Shown: piece after piece, positions 58,262-64,000 of the stretch | Layout of the letters: the number at the start of each line of letters is the position of its first letter | How positions within the stretch are numbered: position 1 is the first letter of the stretch | From: Aneurinibacillus soli | GTDB lineage: Bacteria > Bacillota > Bacilli > Aneurinibacillales > Aneurinibacillaceae | DNA: 64,000 nucleotides | Assembly (NCBI RefSeq): GCF_002355375.1 | Contig: NZ_AP017312.1 | Span: forward strand, 470,001-534,000 | Direction: 5' to 3' | Translations under genes and position numbers: made by a program | The notes under the pieces: generated by a model | Seen by the model: the letters and a program-made list of their open reading frames with translations, nothing else | Databases searched by the model: none | Told to the model about the DNA's origin: nothing

Positions 58262-60388
58262 ATGAATACTGCTCTATCGCTGCTTAATTTGCTTGCATTC
58301 TTTGCAGTAACGGGCTATGCGGTGTATTTGTTCGCTCAGCTTGTATACAGCCGAGTAACATACATCAAGCTTGGTCGTGCAGGTGATTTGCGCGAAGACG
58401 CCTCCGAGAAAGTGAATCAGTTTCTGGTTAACGTTTTTGGACAGAGAAAACTATTAAAAGATTCCAAAAGCGGCGTCATGCACCTTGTACTTTTTTATGG
58501 CTTCCTGTTAGTTCAGTTTGGAGCCATTGATCTGATCTGGAAGGGGCTTAAACCAGGTTCCCATCTTCCATTTGGGTCGGCATATCCGTACTTTTTGTTA
58601 CTTCAGGAGATTGTTGTCGTTGCGATTTTACTTTCTATTTTCTACGCATGGTATCGTCGTAATGTTGAAAAATTAAAGCGCTTAAAACGTGGCTGGAAAG
58701 CAAATCTTGTTGTCTGGCTGATTACAACGTTAATGATCAGTACGTTATTTGCGGAAGCGACAGAAATGATCTGGTTGCATGCAGACAAAGTAGCGTATCA
58801 TTCCACACAGCCGATCGCATCGAGCATTGCGGTTCTGTTGAGTGGTATCGGTTCGACAGCAGCAGGTGCTTTATTTTACGTGTTCTGGTGGACTCACTTG
58901 CTGACGCTTTTATTCTTCCTTGTATACATTCCGCAGGGCAAGCACGCGCATTTGCTGTTTGCACCGTATAACTGGCTGATGAAAGACAAATCCCGTCCGC
59001 CAAGTAAACTGACAGCGCTTGACTTCGAGAAGCTGGAAGAAGAAGGTGCGGAAGAGTTTGGGGTTGGCCGCATTGAGAATTTTACGCAAAATCAGCTTAT
59101 CGATCTGTATGCCTGCGTAGAGTGTGGGCGATGCACGAGCATGTGTCCGGCAGCAGGCACAGGTAAAACATTGTCTCCGATGGATCTCATCGTGAAAATG
59201 CGTGATCATCTGACGGACAAAGGGGCGGCGATTACAGGTCGTACACCGTGGTTGCCGGCAAGTGTCTTTAAAGACATGAAGGGCAACGAGTTGGCGATGC
59301 AGGCGGCTGTAGCCAATGTAGCGGGTGATGAAGTTGCAGTTGCGACAGAGGGTTCGTCCGCTCTCAAAATTGATTATGATGTAAACCTGATCGGCGATGT
59401 TATTACGGAAGAAGAACTGTGGGCTTGTACGACATGCCGCAACTGTGAAGATCAGTGCCCGGTGGCGAATGAACACGTTGAGAAAATTGTCGACATGCGC
59501 CGCTACCTTGTTATGACAGAAGGACAGATGCCAGCCGATGCACAGCGTGCGCTGAGCAACATTGAGCGTCAGAGCAATCCGTGGGGGATTAACCGGAAAA
59601 ACCGCATCAACTGGCGTGAAGGTATTGAAGATTTGGTGCCAACAGCGAAGGATGCGGACGAGTTCGACTACCTGTTCTTTGTTGGATCAATGGGATCGTT
59701 TGATAATCGTTCCATTAAGATCACCCAGTCGTTTATCCGTGTTATGCACAAGGCGGGCATCAAGTTTGCTATTCTCGGTAATGAGGAGAAAAACTCAGGT
59801 GATACACCACGTCGCCTTGGTAACGAGATGCTGTATCAAGAGCTGGCGATGGAAAATATCGCAAGCTTTGAAAAGTACGGTGTGAAGAAGATCGTCACGA
59901 TGGACCCACACGCATACAATACAATTAAGAGCGAGTATCCGGACTTCGGTCTCGAAGGGGTGGAAGTATACCACCATACAGAAGTTCTGGCGAAGTGGAT
60001 CAAAGAAGGCCGCCTGAATCCGGTGAATGAAGTGAATGAGCGTGTGACGTACCATGACTCTTGCTACCTGGGTCGTTACAACGAAGTGTACAATCCGCCG
60101 CGCGACATTCTGTCTGCGATTCCGGGCGTACAGATCGTTGAGATGGAGCGTTCCGGCTGCGACAGCATGTGCTGTGGTGCAGGTGGCGGTATGATGTGGC
60201 AGGAAGAGCACCAAGGTACACGTGTAAACATTGCGCGTACAGAACAGGCTCTCGCTGTGAATCCGACCACAATCGGAAGCGCATGCCCATACTGTCTGAC
60301 GATGCTGTCTGACGGTACAAAAGCAAAAGAAATGGAAGAGAAAGTTCAGACACTCGACCTCGTAGAAATTTTGGAAAAAGCATTATAA
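58262..60388 (+). CDS. fadF: iron-sulfur heterodisulfide-reductase-like membrane protein (FadF type)
   Basis: 708 residues behind GAAGGAG. About five to six transmembrane helices (to about 240; the NarI-like, quinone-side half) precede two [4Fe-4S] motifs CVECGRCTSMCP (about 285) and CTTCRNCEDQCPV (about 389), then CCG-type cysteine clusters (DSCYLGRYN, CDSMCCGAGGG, ACPYC). The architecture is that of FadF/YwjF, proposed to pass electrons from acyl-CoA dehydrogenase via ETF to menaquinone. The genes for thiolase, 3-hydroxyacyl-CoA and acyl-CoA dehydrogenases downstream fit fatty-acid oxidation. Confidence 0.92.
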   Translation: MNTALSLLNLLAFFAVTGYAVYLFAQLVYSRVTYIKLGRAGDLREDASEKVNQFLVNVFGQRKLLKDSKSGVMHLVLFYGFLLVQFGAIDLIWKGLKPGSHLPFGSAYPYFLLLQEIVVVAILLSIFYAWYRRNVEKLKRLKRGWKANLVVWLITTLMISTLFAEATEMIWLHADKVAYHSTQPIASSIAVLLSGIGSTAAGALFYVFWWTHLLTLLFFLVYIPQGKHAHLLFAPYNWLMKDKSRPPSKLTALDFEKLEEEGAEEFGVGRIENFTQNQLIDLYACVECGRCTSMCPAAGTGKTLSPMDLIVKMRDHLTDKGAAITGRTPWLPASVFKDMKGNELAMQAAVANVAGDEVAVATEGSSALKIDYDVNLIGDVITEEELWACTTCRNCEDQCPVANEHVEKIVDMRRYLVMTEGQMPADAQRALSNIERQSNPWGINRKNRINWREGIEDLVPTAKDADEFDYLFFVGSMGSFDNRSIKITQSFIRVMHKAGIKFAILGNEEKNSGDTPRRLGNEMLYQELAMENIASFEKYGVKKIVTMDPHAYNTIKSEYPDFGLEGVEVYHHTEVLAKWIKEGRLNPVNEVNERVTYHDSCYLGRYNEVYNPPRDILSAIPGVQIVEMERSGCDSMCCGAGGGMMWQEEHQGTRVNIARTEQALAVNPTTIGSACPYCLTMLSDGTKAKEMEEKVQTLDLVEILEKAL

Positions 60389-60440
60389 TTTAATCTTTTT
60401 TATTTAGTTGAATATTGATAAAATAAAAACAAATAGGGAT

Positions 60441-60472
60441 ACCCGGCGGTTACTAAGTCGCCGGGCTTCTCT
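60441..60472 (+). terminator. intrinsic terminator of fadF
   Basis: CCCGGCG (60442-60448) pairs with CGCCGGG (60459-60465), followed by a T-rich tail. Confidence 0.75.
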
Positions 60473-60550
60473 TAAAGCTTATACTGACCGAGCAATCGCT
60501 CATTTTTGATAATCCTTAGTTTGAGTTACAAAACGAGAGGGGCAATAAGT

Positions 60551-61735
60551 ATGAAAAAGTCTGTAATCGTCAGCGCAGCCCGCACACCATTCGGCAAGTT
60601 CGGAGGTAGCCTTAGTTCTTTGCAAGCAGTTGATTTAGGTGGAATTGTCATCAAGGAAGCAGTTGAACGTGCAGGTATTCAGCCGGAGCAAGTGGATGAA
60701 TTGATTATGGGTATGGTTTTGCAAGGCGGTGCCAAGCAGATTCCATCCCGTCAGGCAGCTCGCAAGGCAGGATTGCCGTGGGAAGTACAGACAGAGACAA
60801 TTAACAAAGTATGTGCTTCCGGCTTACGCAGCGTAACACTTGCGGACCAGATCATTCGTGCAGGAGATGCGGACGTTATTGTGGCAGGTGGCATGGAAAG
60901 CATGAGCAATGCGCCATACATTTTGCCGAATGCACGCTGGGGCATGCGTATGGGCGACGGCAAGGCGGTCGACTTGATGCTTAATGACGGTCTTACAGAC
61001 GCATACGACGGCAAACATATGGCTGTACATGGCAGCAACGTAGCGGCTGAATTTGAGATTGCTCGCGAGGCACAGGATGAGTGGGCACTCCGTAGCCAGC
61101 AGCGTGCGGCGGAAGCGATGAGAGCAGGCAGATTTAACGATGAGATCGTGCCGGTTCCAGTACCGCAACGCAAAGGCGATCCAATTCTGATTGACACGGA
61201 CGAATCGCCACGCGAGACGAGCATCGAACAATTAGCAAAGCTGTCTCCAGTCTTTACAAAAGACGGCTCCATCACAGCAGGTAACGCACCGGGTGTAAAC
61301 GATGGCGCAGGTGCACTTGTTGTAATGTCCGAAGAGAAAGCAGAAGAGCTTGGTGCAAAACCACTCGCGACCATTCTCGGTCATGCAGCGGTTGGACAGG
61401 AAGCACCTTATATTGCGACTACACCAGGACTCGCGATTAATAAGCTTCTTAAGAAAACAGGCTACACCATTGATCAAATTGATCTGTTTGAAGTGAATGA
61501 AGCATTTGCAGCCGTTGTCCTCACAAGCGGAAAAATCGCAGGATGGGACCCGGAAAAAGTGAACGTTAACGGCGGTGCGATCGCATTCGGTCACCCAATC
61601 GGCGCGAGTGGCTCCCGCATTTTGATGACGCTCATTTATGAACTGCGCCGTCGTGGCGGTGGTCTGGGCATCGCAGCAATTTGCTCCGGTGCAGCACAGG
61701 GCGATGCGATTCTGGTAGAAGTTCCAAGGGTGTAA
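60551..61735 (+). CDS. thiolase family protein (acetyl-CoA acetyltransferase)
   Basis: 394 residues from the ATG at 60551 (GAGAGGGG upstream). Catalytic elements in order: [10 protein letters not shown] (nucleophilic Cys), the pantetheine loop, [17 protein letters not shown] (catalytic His) and [12 protein letters not shown] (second active-site Cys as CSGAAQG instead of the more common CGGGGQG). It cleaves or forms acetoacetyl-CoA or 3-ketoacyl-CoA. Its stop is followed at once by the promoter of the structured RNA candidate. Confidence 0.94.
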
Positions 61736-61736
61736 G

Positions 61737-61766
61737 TTGAGAATTTTGTGACATATTTGATATAGT
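61737..61766 (+). promoter_or_regulatory. sigma-A-type promoter of the intergenic RNA
   Basis: TTGAGA (61737-61742), an 18-base spacer and TATAGT (61761-61766), directly after the thiolase stop. Transcription would start near 61773. Confidence 0.65.
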
Positions 61767-61772
61767 GATAAG

Positions 61773-62045
61773 GAACGAGTATACCGTGGTGGTAGCTGCG
61801 TAAATTGCCCTCGTCTGCTGGCTGTCGTTCGCCTATAGCATTCAAGAGTCGCAGGAGAAAAACCGTTTACCTCTGGCACGAAAACCAAGTGCCAAAAGAT
61901 AAAAAAGACTGCAAGCCAATACGAACTTTTCGTATTCAACCGTAGGAACTACGGGGGTAGCCTGCTTATCTTCGCTCGTTGGAGCGTTCAGCGCAGGAAT
62001 CTCGTTACTTTAGTGATGAGAGGTTCAATTCCCTACGATATATAC
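61773..62045 (+). ncRNA. candidate structured RNA of unknown class (about 270 nt)
   Basis: Densely folded: CTGCG/CGCAG (61796-61800/61850-61854), TGGCAC/GTGCCA (61874-61879/61889-61894), AATACGAA/TTCGTATT (61918-61925/61929-61936), CCGTAG/CTACGG (61940-61945/61949-61954), CCTGC/GCAGG (61961-61965/61993-61997) enclosing CGCTC/GAGCG, and CTCGTTAC/GTGATGAG (62001-62008/62013-62020). The end AGGTTCAATTCCCT (62021-62034) looks like a tRNA T-loop. CGTAGG at 61941 could also pair with CCTACG at 62032, closing a tRNA-like domain. It has its own promoter, carries no ORF and ends just before the ribosome site of the next gene, so it may be a free RNA or a leader. Confidence 0.65.
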
Positions 62046-62061
62046 AAGGAGTGGAGAACCC

Positions 62062-62913
62062 ATGGAAGTAAAAACATTTATGGTTGTAGGCGCAGGTCAG
62101 ATGGGAAGCGGCATTGCACAAGTAGCGGCACAGGCAGGACTGAACGTTATCCTGCATGATGTAAAAGACGAATTTGTGAACCGTGGCCTTGGTGTGATTA
62201 CGAAGAATCTCACACGTGATGTAGAAAAAGGACGCAAGACAGAAGAAGAGAAACAGGCGATCCTTGGCCGCATCAAGCCGTCTACAGACATCAACAACGC
62301 AAAAGACATCGACTTCGTTGTCGAAGCGATCATTGAAAACATGGAAGTCAAAACACAGCTGTTCAAGCAGCTTGATGAGCTTGCACCTGCGCACGCCATT
62401 CTTGCGAGTAACACGTCCTCGCTCCCGATCACAGAGATTGCAGCGGTAACGAAACGTCCGGAGCAAGTGATCGGTATGCACTTTATGAATCCGGTTCCTG
62501 TTATGAAGCTGATCGAAGTGATTCGCGGTCTGGCTACTTCGGATGAGACATACAAAATCGTAGCAGAACTGTCCGAGAAGATGAACAAGACAGCGGTGGA
62601 AGTAAACGACTTCCCTGGCTTTGTATCCAACCGTGTTCTGCTTCCGATGATCAATGAAGCAATCTACTGTGTATACGAAGGCGTTGCAACACCGGAAGCA
62701 ATTGATGATGTAATGAAAATGGGCATGAACCATCCGATGGGTCCACTGACACTCGCTGACTTTATTGGGCTTGATACGTGCCTCTATATCATGGAAGTGC
62801 TGCATGAAGGCCTAGGAGATTCCAAATACCGTCCATGCCCGTTGCTGCGCAAATATGTAAAAGCAGGCTGGCTCGGACGTAAATCAGGTCGCGGCTTCTA
62901 CGTATACGAATAG
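62062..62913 (+). CDS. mmgB: 3-hydroxybutyryl-CoA dehydrogenase
   Basis: 283 residues behind AAGGAGTGG. The N-terminal Rossmann domain has [19 protein letters not shown] (NAD loop), [16 protein letters not shown] and [16 protein letters not shown]. The C-terminal helical domain has [16 protein letters not shown] (catalytic His), [11 protein letters not shown] and [20 protein letters not shown]. Oxidises (S)-3-hydroxybutyryl-CoA. It probably forms one unit with the acyl-CoA dehydrogenase gene 71 bases downstream. Confidence 0.95.
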
Positions 62914-62984
62914 ATACACGTAACAGGCACATGGCAGGTGCTTTTCCAGCTAGAGCAGACAGATCGATCCAAGGAGGATAAACC

Positions 62985-64000
62985 ATGCATTTACAATTTA
63001 CAGAAGAGCAAGATATGATGCGCAAGATGGTGCGCGACTTTGCGCGTGAGGAGATTGCACCGCAGATCGAAAAAATGGAAGAGAACGATGAATTCCCATA
63101 TGAGATCATTCGTAAGATGGGAGAATACGGTCTGATGGGGATTCCGATTCCAGAAGCATACGGCGGTTCAGAAGCGGATTTCATCTCGTATATCATTGCC
63201 ATTAATGAAATTTCCAAAGTAAGCCCGACAGTAGGAGTAATTCTCTCTGTACACACTTCGGTTGGAACGAACCCGATTTTGTACTTCGGGAATGAAGAGC
63301 AGAAGAAGAAGTATGTGCCGAAGCTTGCGACAGGTGAATACATTGGTGCGTTTGCGTTAACGGAACCAAGTGCAGGCTCTGATGCAGCGGGCATGCGAAC
63401 AACGGCTGTGAAGCAGGGCGATAAATATATTTTGAACGGCTCCAAGATTTTTATTACGAATGGTGGTGCGGCAAGTACGTACATCGTATTTGCGGTAACA
63501 GATTCATCCAAAGGACCAAAAGGGATTTCTGCTTTCATTGTAGAAAAAGATACACCAGGGTTTACTGTAGGCAAAAAAGAGAAGAAAATGGGTCTGCACG
63601 GTTCGAGTACAACCGAGCTCATTTTCGATAATGCGGAAGTGCCAGCAGCAAATCTACTTGGCGAAGAGGGCATGGGCTTTACTATCGCGATGGCTAACCT
63701 TGATGTTGGTCGGATCGGGATTGCTTCACAGGGTCTTGGGATTGCGGAAGGTGCGCTTGAGCATGCGATTGCGTATGCCAAAGAGCGTGTTCAGTTCGGC
63801 AAACCGATTGCAGCGCAGCAGGGAATCGGCTTCAAACTCGCAGATATGGCAACACAGACAGAAGCGGCTCGTATGCTTGTATACCGTGCGGCAGCGCTGC
63901 GTAATGCAGGCGTGAAGTGCGGATTGGAAGCATCAATGGCGAAGAAGTTCGCAACCGACACGGCTATGAAGGTAACCACAGAAGCGATCCAGGTATTCGG
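62985..64000 (+). CDS. acdA: acyl-CoA dehydrogenase, 3' end outside the window
   Basis: Start ATG at 62985 behind AAGGAGGAT; 338 complete codons to the window edge, with about 40 residues missing. Flavoprotein fold: N-terminal helices (LQFTEEQDMMRKMVRDFARE), the beta-domain ALTEPSAGSDAAGMRTTA and YILNGSKIFITNGG (FAD and substrate contacts), and C-terminal helices with DVGRIGIASQGLGIAEGAL and ERVQFGKPIAAQQGI. The catalytic Glu of short-chain enzymes (in a YEGT-type motif) lies beyond the edge. It matches the short-chain AcdA/MmgC group, whose electrons would go via ETF to FadF. Confidence 0.93.
   Translation, partial: MHLQFTEEQDMMRKMVRDFAREEIAPQIEKMEENDEFPYEIIRKMGEYGLMGIPIPEAYGGSEADFISYIIAINEISKVSPTVGVILSVHTSVGTNPILYFGNEEQKKKYVPKLATGEYIGAFALTEPSAGSDAAGMRTTAVKQGDKYILNGSKIFITNGGAASTYIVFAVTDSSKGPKGISAFIVEKDTPGFTVGKKEKKMGLHGSSTTELIFDNAEVPAANLLGEEGMGFTIAMANLDVGRIGIASQGLGIAEGALEHAIAYAKERVQFGKPIAAQQGIGFKLADMATQTEAARMLVYRAAALRNAGVKCGLEASMAKKFATDTAMKVTTEAIQVF

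Follow-up and report, generated by a model that had tools for sequence, protein, structure and literature searches.

The gap between a thiolase gene and hbd in Aneurinibacillus soli (contig NZ_AP017312.1) probably holds the relic of a protein-less IS200/IS605-family element of the PATE/MITE class, carrying two guide-RNA-like modules that would serve as guides in trans. Positions below refer to the window, the whole 64,000-nucleotide stretch that was analyzed. The gap (61737-62045) lies between a gene with the Pfam domains Thiolase_N and Thiolase_C and the downstream hbd (62062-62913, forward strand), which encodes a 3-hydroxyacyl-CoA dehydrogenase (PF02737, 3HCDH_N; PF00725, 3HCDH). An earlier note, made from the sequence alone, had read this gap as a folded RNA, either free-standing or a leader for beta-oxidation genes. 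A structured noncoding RNA region with a plausible promoter is indeed there. It does not look like an independent host RNA such as raiA or tmRNA, nor does it look like a dedicated leader for beta-oxidation; the insertion is absent from a congener and combines an IS200/IS605 right end with an RNA of tnpB-less mobile elements. The first reading had a real structured RNA in hand and gave it the wrong class.

Insertion between the thiolase gene and hbd

In the one congener compared at this locus (G006, L011), the thiolase gene and hbd are joined without the insert (...AAATTTTAT|TTCCTTACG... / AAATTTTAT|TTCCTTACGATATATAAAAGG...), and a TAM-like TTTAT runs straight into TTCCTTACG before hbd. Because the same genes are joined there without the stretch, by this alignment about 279 bp (61750-62028, forward strand) is inserted at TTTAT in A. 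soli, as the remnant of a tnpB-less IS200/IS605-family element whose right end is kept and whose left end is lost; the left boundary is approximate, being based on one empty site and one homologous copy. TTTAT likewise precedes the left ends of tnpB elements of this genome in six of the seven loci examined, and it stands ahead of the left ends of the genome's own tnpA element, of a copy in A. danicus (G003), and of several relatives' elements. No tnpB was found in the 279-bp remnant.

A DNA search of the A. soli genome and 60 relatives gave matches in 11 of the 61 genomes, A. soli included, with more than one copy in several. For 10 of these 11, the match covered the 3' part and ended at, or within a few bases of, the GGTTCAA that closes at 62028; G045 matched only at 61938-61964. 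The left half also matched G346 (81%, upstream of cmk as read by eye) and G363 (85%), in both cases starting at 61773. The A. danicus copy, at a different genomic site, is 91% identical over 228 bp and keeps its left end behind TTTAT with the right end missing, the reverse of the window copy. Where its right end would be, a terminator-like GAAAAAGGCGAACGCCTTTTTC was seen by eye (L003, about 1728-1760), as if that copy had turned into a free-standing RNA. The A. soli genome contains one full copy only; at C1:2689090-2689200 (L002, L046), the remains of another tnpB element adjoin a second, partial right end of this subtype. TnpA should be unable to excise the window copy now that its left hairpin is gone.

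The promoter that the earlier note had placed directly after the thiolase gene was recovered by a motif scan at 61737-61766 on the forward strand (TTGAGA, 18 nt, TATAGT, with TG ahead of the second hexamer), although one such site against a shuffle mean of 0.7 puts the count at chance level. Its extended -10 is common to the window and A. danicus copies (TGATATAGT / TGATATAAA). No terminator-like site was found in 61500-62200. The gap was also said to be free of open reading frames; this is so for the forward strand (none of 60 amino acids or more) but not for the reverse strand, where three (235, 69, and 266 amino acids) enter from regions opposite the flanking genes and were taken as putative antisense shadows of these. 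As to the strong stems claimed for the gap, the last 95 nt or so fold far better than shuffles on the forward strand (z -3.24, 0/200 shuffles, and z -3.29, 1/200, in two runs), whereas the whole 309 nt barely goes beyond shuffles on that strand (z -1.10, 12/100 equally good); on the reverse strand, the 309 nt reached z -2.76, with 0/100 shuffles equally good. The stretch does end at the ribosome site of hbd, with 62029-62044 standing just before it. At the other end of the window, Rfam marks a cluster of six tRNA genes (43-592).

Two structured RNA modules

The right part of the gap, 61938-62028 on the forward strand, fits a canonical-type TnpB omega-RNA scaffold and transposon right end with the terminus GGTTCAA, as judged by its fold (z -3.29), covariation, and right-end matches; TnpB is related to CRISPR-Cas12. 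The alignment predicts, in order, stem 1 (CCGUAG-GAA-CUACGG, 61940-61954), stem 2 (61961-61997; CCUGC at 61961-61965 with GCAGG at 61993-61997) around stem 3 (CGCUC-GUUG...GAGCG, 61973-61986), and stem 4 (CUCGUUAC-UUUA-GUGAUGAG, 62001-62020). The available text of PMC10097598 gives the ISDra2 omega-RNA four stems, a UUUA tetraloop, and a pre-guide UUC at -5 to -3 that is pseudoknotted with a GAA of the stem 1 region. Measured against that text and the accessible part of PMC8612924, the window module has the same stem order, the UUUA tetraloop, a GAA loop able to pair with a pre-guide UUC (62024-62026), an origin in a right end, and flanking DNA as would-be guide; unlike the ISDra2 RNA as described there, it has no tnpB upstream, has lost its left end, and is preceded by another structured RNA in the presumed transcript.

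Fourteen aligned sequences, the window's own included, had 93.6% of cells paired and two-sided changes in 12 of 26 pairs, a number reached by 1 of 500 shuffles, and sliding the alignment lowered the paired cells to 32-43%. The GAA/UUC helix can pair in 90.5% of cells of these 14 sequences, with a two-sided change in none of its pairs. The window module neither overlaps nor follows a tnpB gene; the same pattern follows tnpB in the A. soli genome (L031-L037) and in relatives (e.g., L013). It also stands behind an annotated tnpB gene on an Enterococcus faecium plasmid, and the match to its start on a Peptoclostridium plasmid overlaps the end of tnpB. None of the A. soli tnpB loci that were fetched has a closely matching right end; there were 28-nt matches in three and one 50-nt remnant.

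The would-be 16-nt guide, TTCCCTACGATATATA (62029-62044, forward strand), is flanking DNA according to the empty-site alignment, and matches elsewhere stop at, or a few bases from, 62028. The putative TAM, TTTAT, stands opposite this right end, as seen from the one congener. The first 12 nt of the guide occur in the window once at up to one mismatch, at their own position, with no target elsewhere in the window by that measure, and exact 12- to 16-nt words of the guide were absent from all other fetched loci.

Known RNA classes did not account for the region. The terminal T-arm-like sequence that the earlier note had pointed out, AGGTTCAATTCCCT, is present at 62021-62034 (forward strand), but no tRNA or tmRNA belongs to it, with none found by ARAGORN in 60000-64000 and none by Rfam; it is, on its letters, the right end GGTTCAA followed by the first bases of the would-be guide, and this accounts for the T-loop resemblance. 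The Rfam search which that note had proposed was run over the whole window with cmscan at gathering level and returned tRNAs only, without the raiA motif (RF03072) that it wanted compared first. A genome search with RF03072 was also without a match, and 14 control genomes were likewise silent, so that the absence is not carried by that search alone. Readings as raiA, tmRNA, a tRNA-like RNA, or a riboswitch, none of which had an Rfam or ARAGORN match, were dropped. HEARO is a family in Rfam, and HEARO/IscB omega-RNA did not match any of the stretches scanned, with E limits of 10, 5, and 1. A permissive scan of the stretch (E up to 10) yielded only a sub-threshold yybP-ykoY match inside the thiolase gene and a 19.4-bit match of Ref70 (RF02841, Enterococcus sRNA 70) at 61934-62022. 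Ref70 also scored 27.6 bits directly behind the annotated tnpB stop on the E. faecium plasmid (L201, NZ_CP040905.1, 1713-1829), both matches being far under its 115-bit threshold; Ref70 may itself be a TnpB omega-RNA.

To the left lies a compact pseudoknotted RNA core (61772-61859, forward strand), delimited by the match of covariance model R1, which was made from this sequence and three relatives. Its 5' strand GAACGA (61773-61778) can pair with UCGUUC (61825-61830) to form helix 1 of the alignment, with 95% of cells paired and a two-sided change in one of six pairs (AU:10 GC:10). Stem 1 is the hairpin UACC-GUGGU-GGUA (61782-61794; helix 2, two-sided changes in 5/5 pairs). Stem 2 (61796-61854) joins CUGCG (61796-61800) to CGCAG (61850-61854; helix 3, 5/5) around stem 3, a hairpin GCUGGC...GCC-UAU-AGC (61817-61839; helices 4 and 5, 5/6) whose loop carries the pseudoknot partner. 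A further hairpin, UGGCAC-GAAAACCAA-GUGCCA (61874-61894), has similar counterparts in A. danicus and G346. The consensus consists of a 5' GAACGR (mostly), the stem 1 hairpin, and stem 2 followed by a near-invariant UAAA (AAA invariant in 20 sequences), with a stem 3 loop, mostly YCGUUC, that pairs back to the 5' end. No Rfam family matches this core.

Twenty core sequences were aligned out of the 43 loci L073-L115, with the window standing for L073 and near-identical as well as several decayed copies left out. In these, 95.6% of cells are paired and 16 of 22 pairs show two-sided changes, as many as in 0 of 500 shuffles, and slid versions are at most 47.7% paired; four sequences alone already had five pairs with two-sided changes. 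With outer stem 3 included the count is 17 of 25, two of the added pairs being unpaired in six sequences, which we put down to a one-base misalignment in the G328, G256, and G136 rows. Conservation and covariation in relatives, which the earlier note had asked for, were found for both modules. By nested folding, the window core is unremarkable (z +0.78; z -0.08 with its hairpin); one key helix is a pseudoknot and beyond such scoring. The G419 copy with its right end gave z -2.72 and the G256 copy z -1.14. Covariation strongly supports the left core despite these energies. An in-frame CVNCPRLLAVVRL-stop had resembled a TnpB C terminus, and a reading of the core as a tnpB coding remnant was set aside because the changes between copies track the helices.

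The compact RNA on multi-copy mobile elements in other genomes

Searches with R1, built from four sequences, matched 6 of 398 genomes of the class, G328 and G246 being new. Model R2, built from six sequences, matched 21 of 41 genomes of the G246 family (123 matches by per-genome counts, with a maximum of 20 in a single genome) and, for the G328 family, 4 of 23 (10 matches), and a DNA search of the G346 family matched G346 alone (1/39). One copy lies beside the first gene of Geobacillus phage phiOH2 (L200, record 117-348) and matches the G419 copy over 232 of 232 query bases at 99.6%, an identity from which we infer the label Geobacillus-type for the G246 family. The core occurs in this Geobacillus-type family and three others. 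An exact 36-base word of the Geobacillus form was also found in four viral contig stretches, one of them as long as phiOH2, and on plasmids this form gave only partial, end-type matches. The Aneurinibacillus form of the core had no match on plasmids, phages, or viral contigs, in searches that were partly by exact word.

The compact type is multi-copy and mobile in these genomes. We could place the core in 37 of 39 copies taken from G419 and G246. Of these 37, 30 have TTTAAC at the left and 34 a recognizable right end, 28 having the two together; no two of the 30 left contexts are alike, nor any two of the 34 right flanks. These elements run to about 220-240 bp, with 239 and 222 bp the commonest lengths, and are ordered as a left-end palindrome, a possible promoter (by eye), the core RNA, GAAGCCCCCACCUCUAAGCGAAGCGUAGGUGGUGGGUAGUUCAC or nearly so, and then unique DNA. 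The ends vary with the host, TTTAA and GTTCAC occurring in Geobacillus-type genomes, where copies start at TTTAA and end in TTCAC, TTTAT and GTTCAA in Aneurinibacillus, and GGTCAA in G256, whose copies continue from the core into a TnpB right-end-like AGAAUCC...GGUCAA. Behind the core, the copies in the window, A. danicus, and G363 have other sequence together with a second scaffold of canonical type, of which A. danicus keeps a truncated version. Copies at other sites stand upstream of genes that were read by eye as enoyl-CoA-hydratase-like (G003), 2-oxoacid oxidoreductase (G363), cmk (G346), and rpsU (G328). The G328 copy (L077 1501-1593, reverse complement) sits between a HIT-family gene and rpsU, as read by eye, behind a promoter-like TTGACA-17-TATAAT.

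No tnpB was found to accompany the core: R2 gave 0 matches in 73 mostly tnpB/tnpA loci (default filters), and tnpB-like fragments lie no more than 1.5 kb away at three of the 43 core loci, in each case beyond the element itself. TnpB genes were present in the A. soli genome and in 8 of 8 chosen core-bearing genomes, so a partner could be at hand; they were also present in 6 of 14 control genomes. The A. soli genome has 16 TnpB zinc-finger matches (15 over the cut-off) against only two Y1 transposase matches, and many of its tnpB elements seem dependent on few TnpA copies. Meers et al. are said to have described PATEs in G. stearothermophilus in 2023.

The ends of the compact elements match those of resident elements. 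The G419 copy agrees with L191 of G246, which has a tnpA-like ORF (by eye) and a broken tnpB, over 84 nt at the left end (74%) and 36 nt at the right (100%), with a tnpB remnant of the same genome (L192) over 44 nt at the right (100%), and with L038 of A. soli, an element with an intact 370-aa TnpB, over 38 nt of the left and 44 nt of the right end (both 95%). All three have a different scaffold ahead of the last hairpin, not the compact core. By size, TAM, and end only, the TTTAA sites, the TTCAC ends, and the 370 aa of L038 resemble ISAam1 TnpB (369 aa, TAM TTTAA; available text of PMC12433972) and SisTnpB (TAM TTTAA, right end TTCAC; available text of PMC11043419), although L038, set beside ISAam1-type elements as described there, lacks the compact core before its last hairpin. 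Like PATEs in the accessible parts of PMC3119063 and PMC7290912, compact elements are short, lack a transposase gene, occur in many copies, and carry near-terminal palindromes like those of resident IS605-type elements, the ends of G246 copies closely resembling those of L191 and L192; unlike PATEs as described there, their interior is not a mere fusion of ends but a conserved, covarying RNA found across families with differing ends. The G246 and G419 elements and the window remnant alike are short and without a transposase or tnpB gene. Resident-like ends on both sides and multiple copies were seen for the G246 and G419 copies, and the window has a right end only and its A. danicus sister a left end only.

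In most copies viewed, the core is followed by a terminal hairpin, a GUUCAC-like end, and variable flank, an arrangement that makes the left core look like a compact omega-RNA. We read the stem 1 loop tetramer against the pre-guide tetramer by hand in 22 loci (GAAC/GUUC, GACC/GGUC, GAUC/GAUC, GACU/AGUC, and others) and found 79 of 88 positions able to pair (against a mean of 68.9 for shuffles, 1 in 10,000 of which reached this value), or 66 of 88 with Watson-Crick pairs only (3/10,000) and 63 of 72 in the 18 distinct combinations (0/10,000). The count left out 21 of the 43 loci, namely the window, A. danicus, G346, and G363, whose GUGGU-like stem 1 loops do not fit this pairing, and 17 others, which are largely like the counted copies but include L098, L107, and L112. 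The pairing corresponds to a pseudoknot that the available text of PMC10097598 gives as conserved in TnpB and Cas12 guide RNAs; in contrast to the ISDra2 omega-RNA of that text, the core has a further pseudoknot at its 5' end, and a near-invariant UAAA follows its stem 2. The 5' GAAC of Geobacillus-type copies is a possible competitor for the pre-guide GUUC, and the energy fold pairs these two.

Proposed guide role and alternative explanations

According to the explanation that we consider probable, the element would have entered at the TAM-like TTTAT lying between hbd and the thiolase gene. Subsequent loss of the left end would have spared the compact pseudoknotted RNA and, behind it, the canonical-type TnpB omega-RNA scaffold, whose 3' extension, the guide, would be flanking DNA. 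A transcript from the extended -10 promoter would be bound by a TnpB encoded elsewhere, and the complex would cut alleles without the element at TTTAT-guide, with repair from the occupied copy restoring the element. More widely, protein-less elements would supply guide RNA in trans to resident TnpBs and be moved by resident TnpA. A proposed role of TnpB is to guard its own transposon through cleavage of sites that lack it. When loaded with a right-end RNA, TnpB is proposed to cut beside the TAM at the donor joint, after which repair restores the element (available text of PMC8612924 and, as far as accessible, the gene-drive work in PMC11870625). The window RNA most likely serves, or formerly served, as a trans-acting guide RNA for TnpB. 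It would now be no more than a leftover guide RNA and a 5' leader acting on hbd in cis; a cis effect of read-through on this gene is possible. Against this explanation stand the chance-level promoter count, a reverse strand that folds better against shuffles than the forward strand, and the absence of the core from the 73 loci searched with R2, which ties no TnpB to the compact RNA. In addition, the stem 1 loop of other copies is missing from the cores in the window, A. danicus, G363, and G346, the GAA/UUC helix is without covariation, no closely matching right end turned up among the A. soli tnpB loci fetched, the A. danicus copy has no right end, and one full copy in the genome is what a dead relic would show.

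Such a plain decayed relic, an untranscribed and nonfunctional derivative of a tnpB transposon by random internal deletion, with structure from the parent's right end, is somewhat unlikely. It would suit the single full copy and the loss of the left end here and of the right end in A. danicus, and core deletions that produce some PATEs are described for Haloquadratum in the available text of PMC3119063. It accounts for the window copy but leaves the left core unexplained: the search of tnpB elements did not turn this core up, its helices covary across 20 sequences of four families, and a single genome may have as many as 20 matches. The left core could instead be RNA cargo of another kind, such as a ribozyme, a riboswitch, or an anti-TnpB or anti-TnpA decoy, rather than an omega-RNA scaffold. 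Its extra 5' pseudoknot and UAAA, without counterpart in the omega-RNA of PMC10097598 as far as that text is available, would speak for this, as would the second scaffold after the core in the window (complete), A. danicus (truncated), and G363 and the Aneurinibacillus-type stem 1 loop that does not suit pre-guide pairing; yet in most copies viewed the core takes the place of omega-RNA stems 1-3, with a terminal hairpin and a pre-guide motif beside it, and there is covariation between its stem 1 loop and the tetramer before the guide, so that we regard cargo as unlikely.

A cis-regulatory leader, by which the insertion gave hbd a new promoter and a structured 5' leader now kept by selection, seems distinctly improbable. 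The RNA shares the orientation of hbd and runs up to its ribosome site with no terminator-like site in 61500-62200, and the copies in A. danicus, G363, G346, and G328 also point toward the next gene, but the locus is empty in the congener, downstream genes differ elsewhere, and the 34 right flanks in G419 and G246 are all distinct. Strong stems and a promoter-like site would suit an independent host RNA from one of the known classes (raiA, tmRNA, 6S, or a riboswitch), but the tRNA-only scan of the whole window, with nothing beyond sub-threshold Ref70 (19.4 against 115 bits) and yybP-ykoY in the permissive scan, brings its probability close to nil.

Returning to the protein-less element with guide-RNA-like modules, a bolder form of this reading, held tentatively and with less than even confidence, is that the compact RNA is a separate class of TnpB guide scaffold confined to protein-less elements. 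It would be a parasite made of RNA alone, exploiting TnpA by way of matching ends and TnpB by way of a mimic scaffold that has an additional 5' pseudoknot, with ends swapped to fit host IS families, a core kept across at least four bacterial families, and a tandem fusion to canonical-type omega-RNA in Aneurinibacillus and G363. The omega-RNA and PATE classes are already known. What appears to be a new variant is the conserved compact scaffold, which in this analysis occurred only in elements without tnpB, together with its joining in tandem to an omega-RNA of canonical type, as far as titles and the start of abstracts among the matches listed show; these hold no description of the compact RNA, subscription papers lying largely outside their scope.

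The analysis accounts for a folded RNA that had no annotation within a metabolic operon, and it yields covariance models of a structured RNA without a match in Rfam 15. If the reading is true, the compact RNA would be a natural minimal scaffold of about 125 nt before the guide, distinct from known omega-RNAs, and a protein-less, multi-copy element with its own conserved guide scaffold would mean that TnpB protection can be hijacked in trans.
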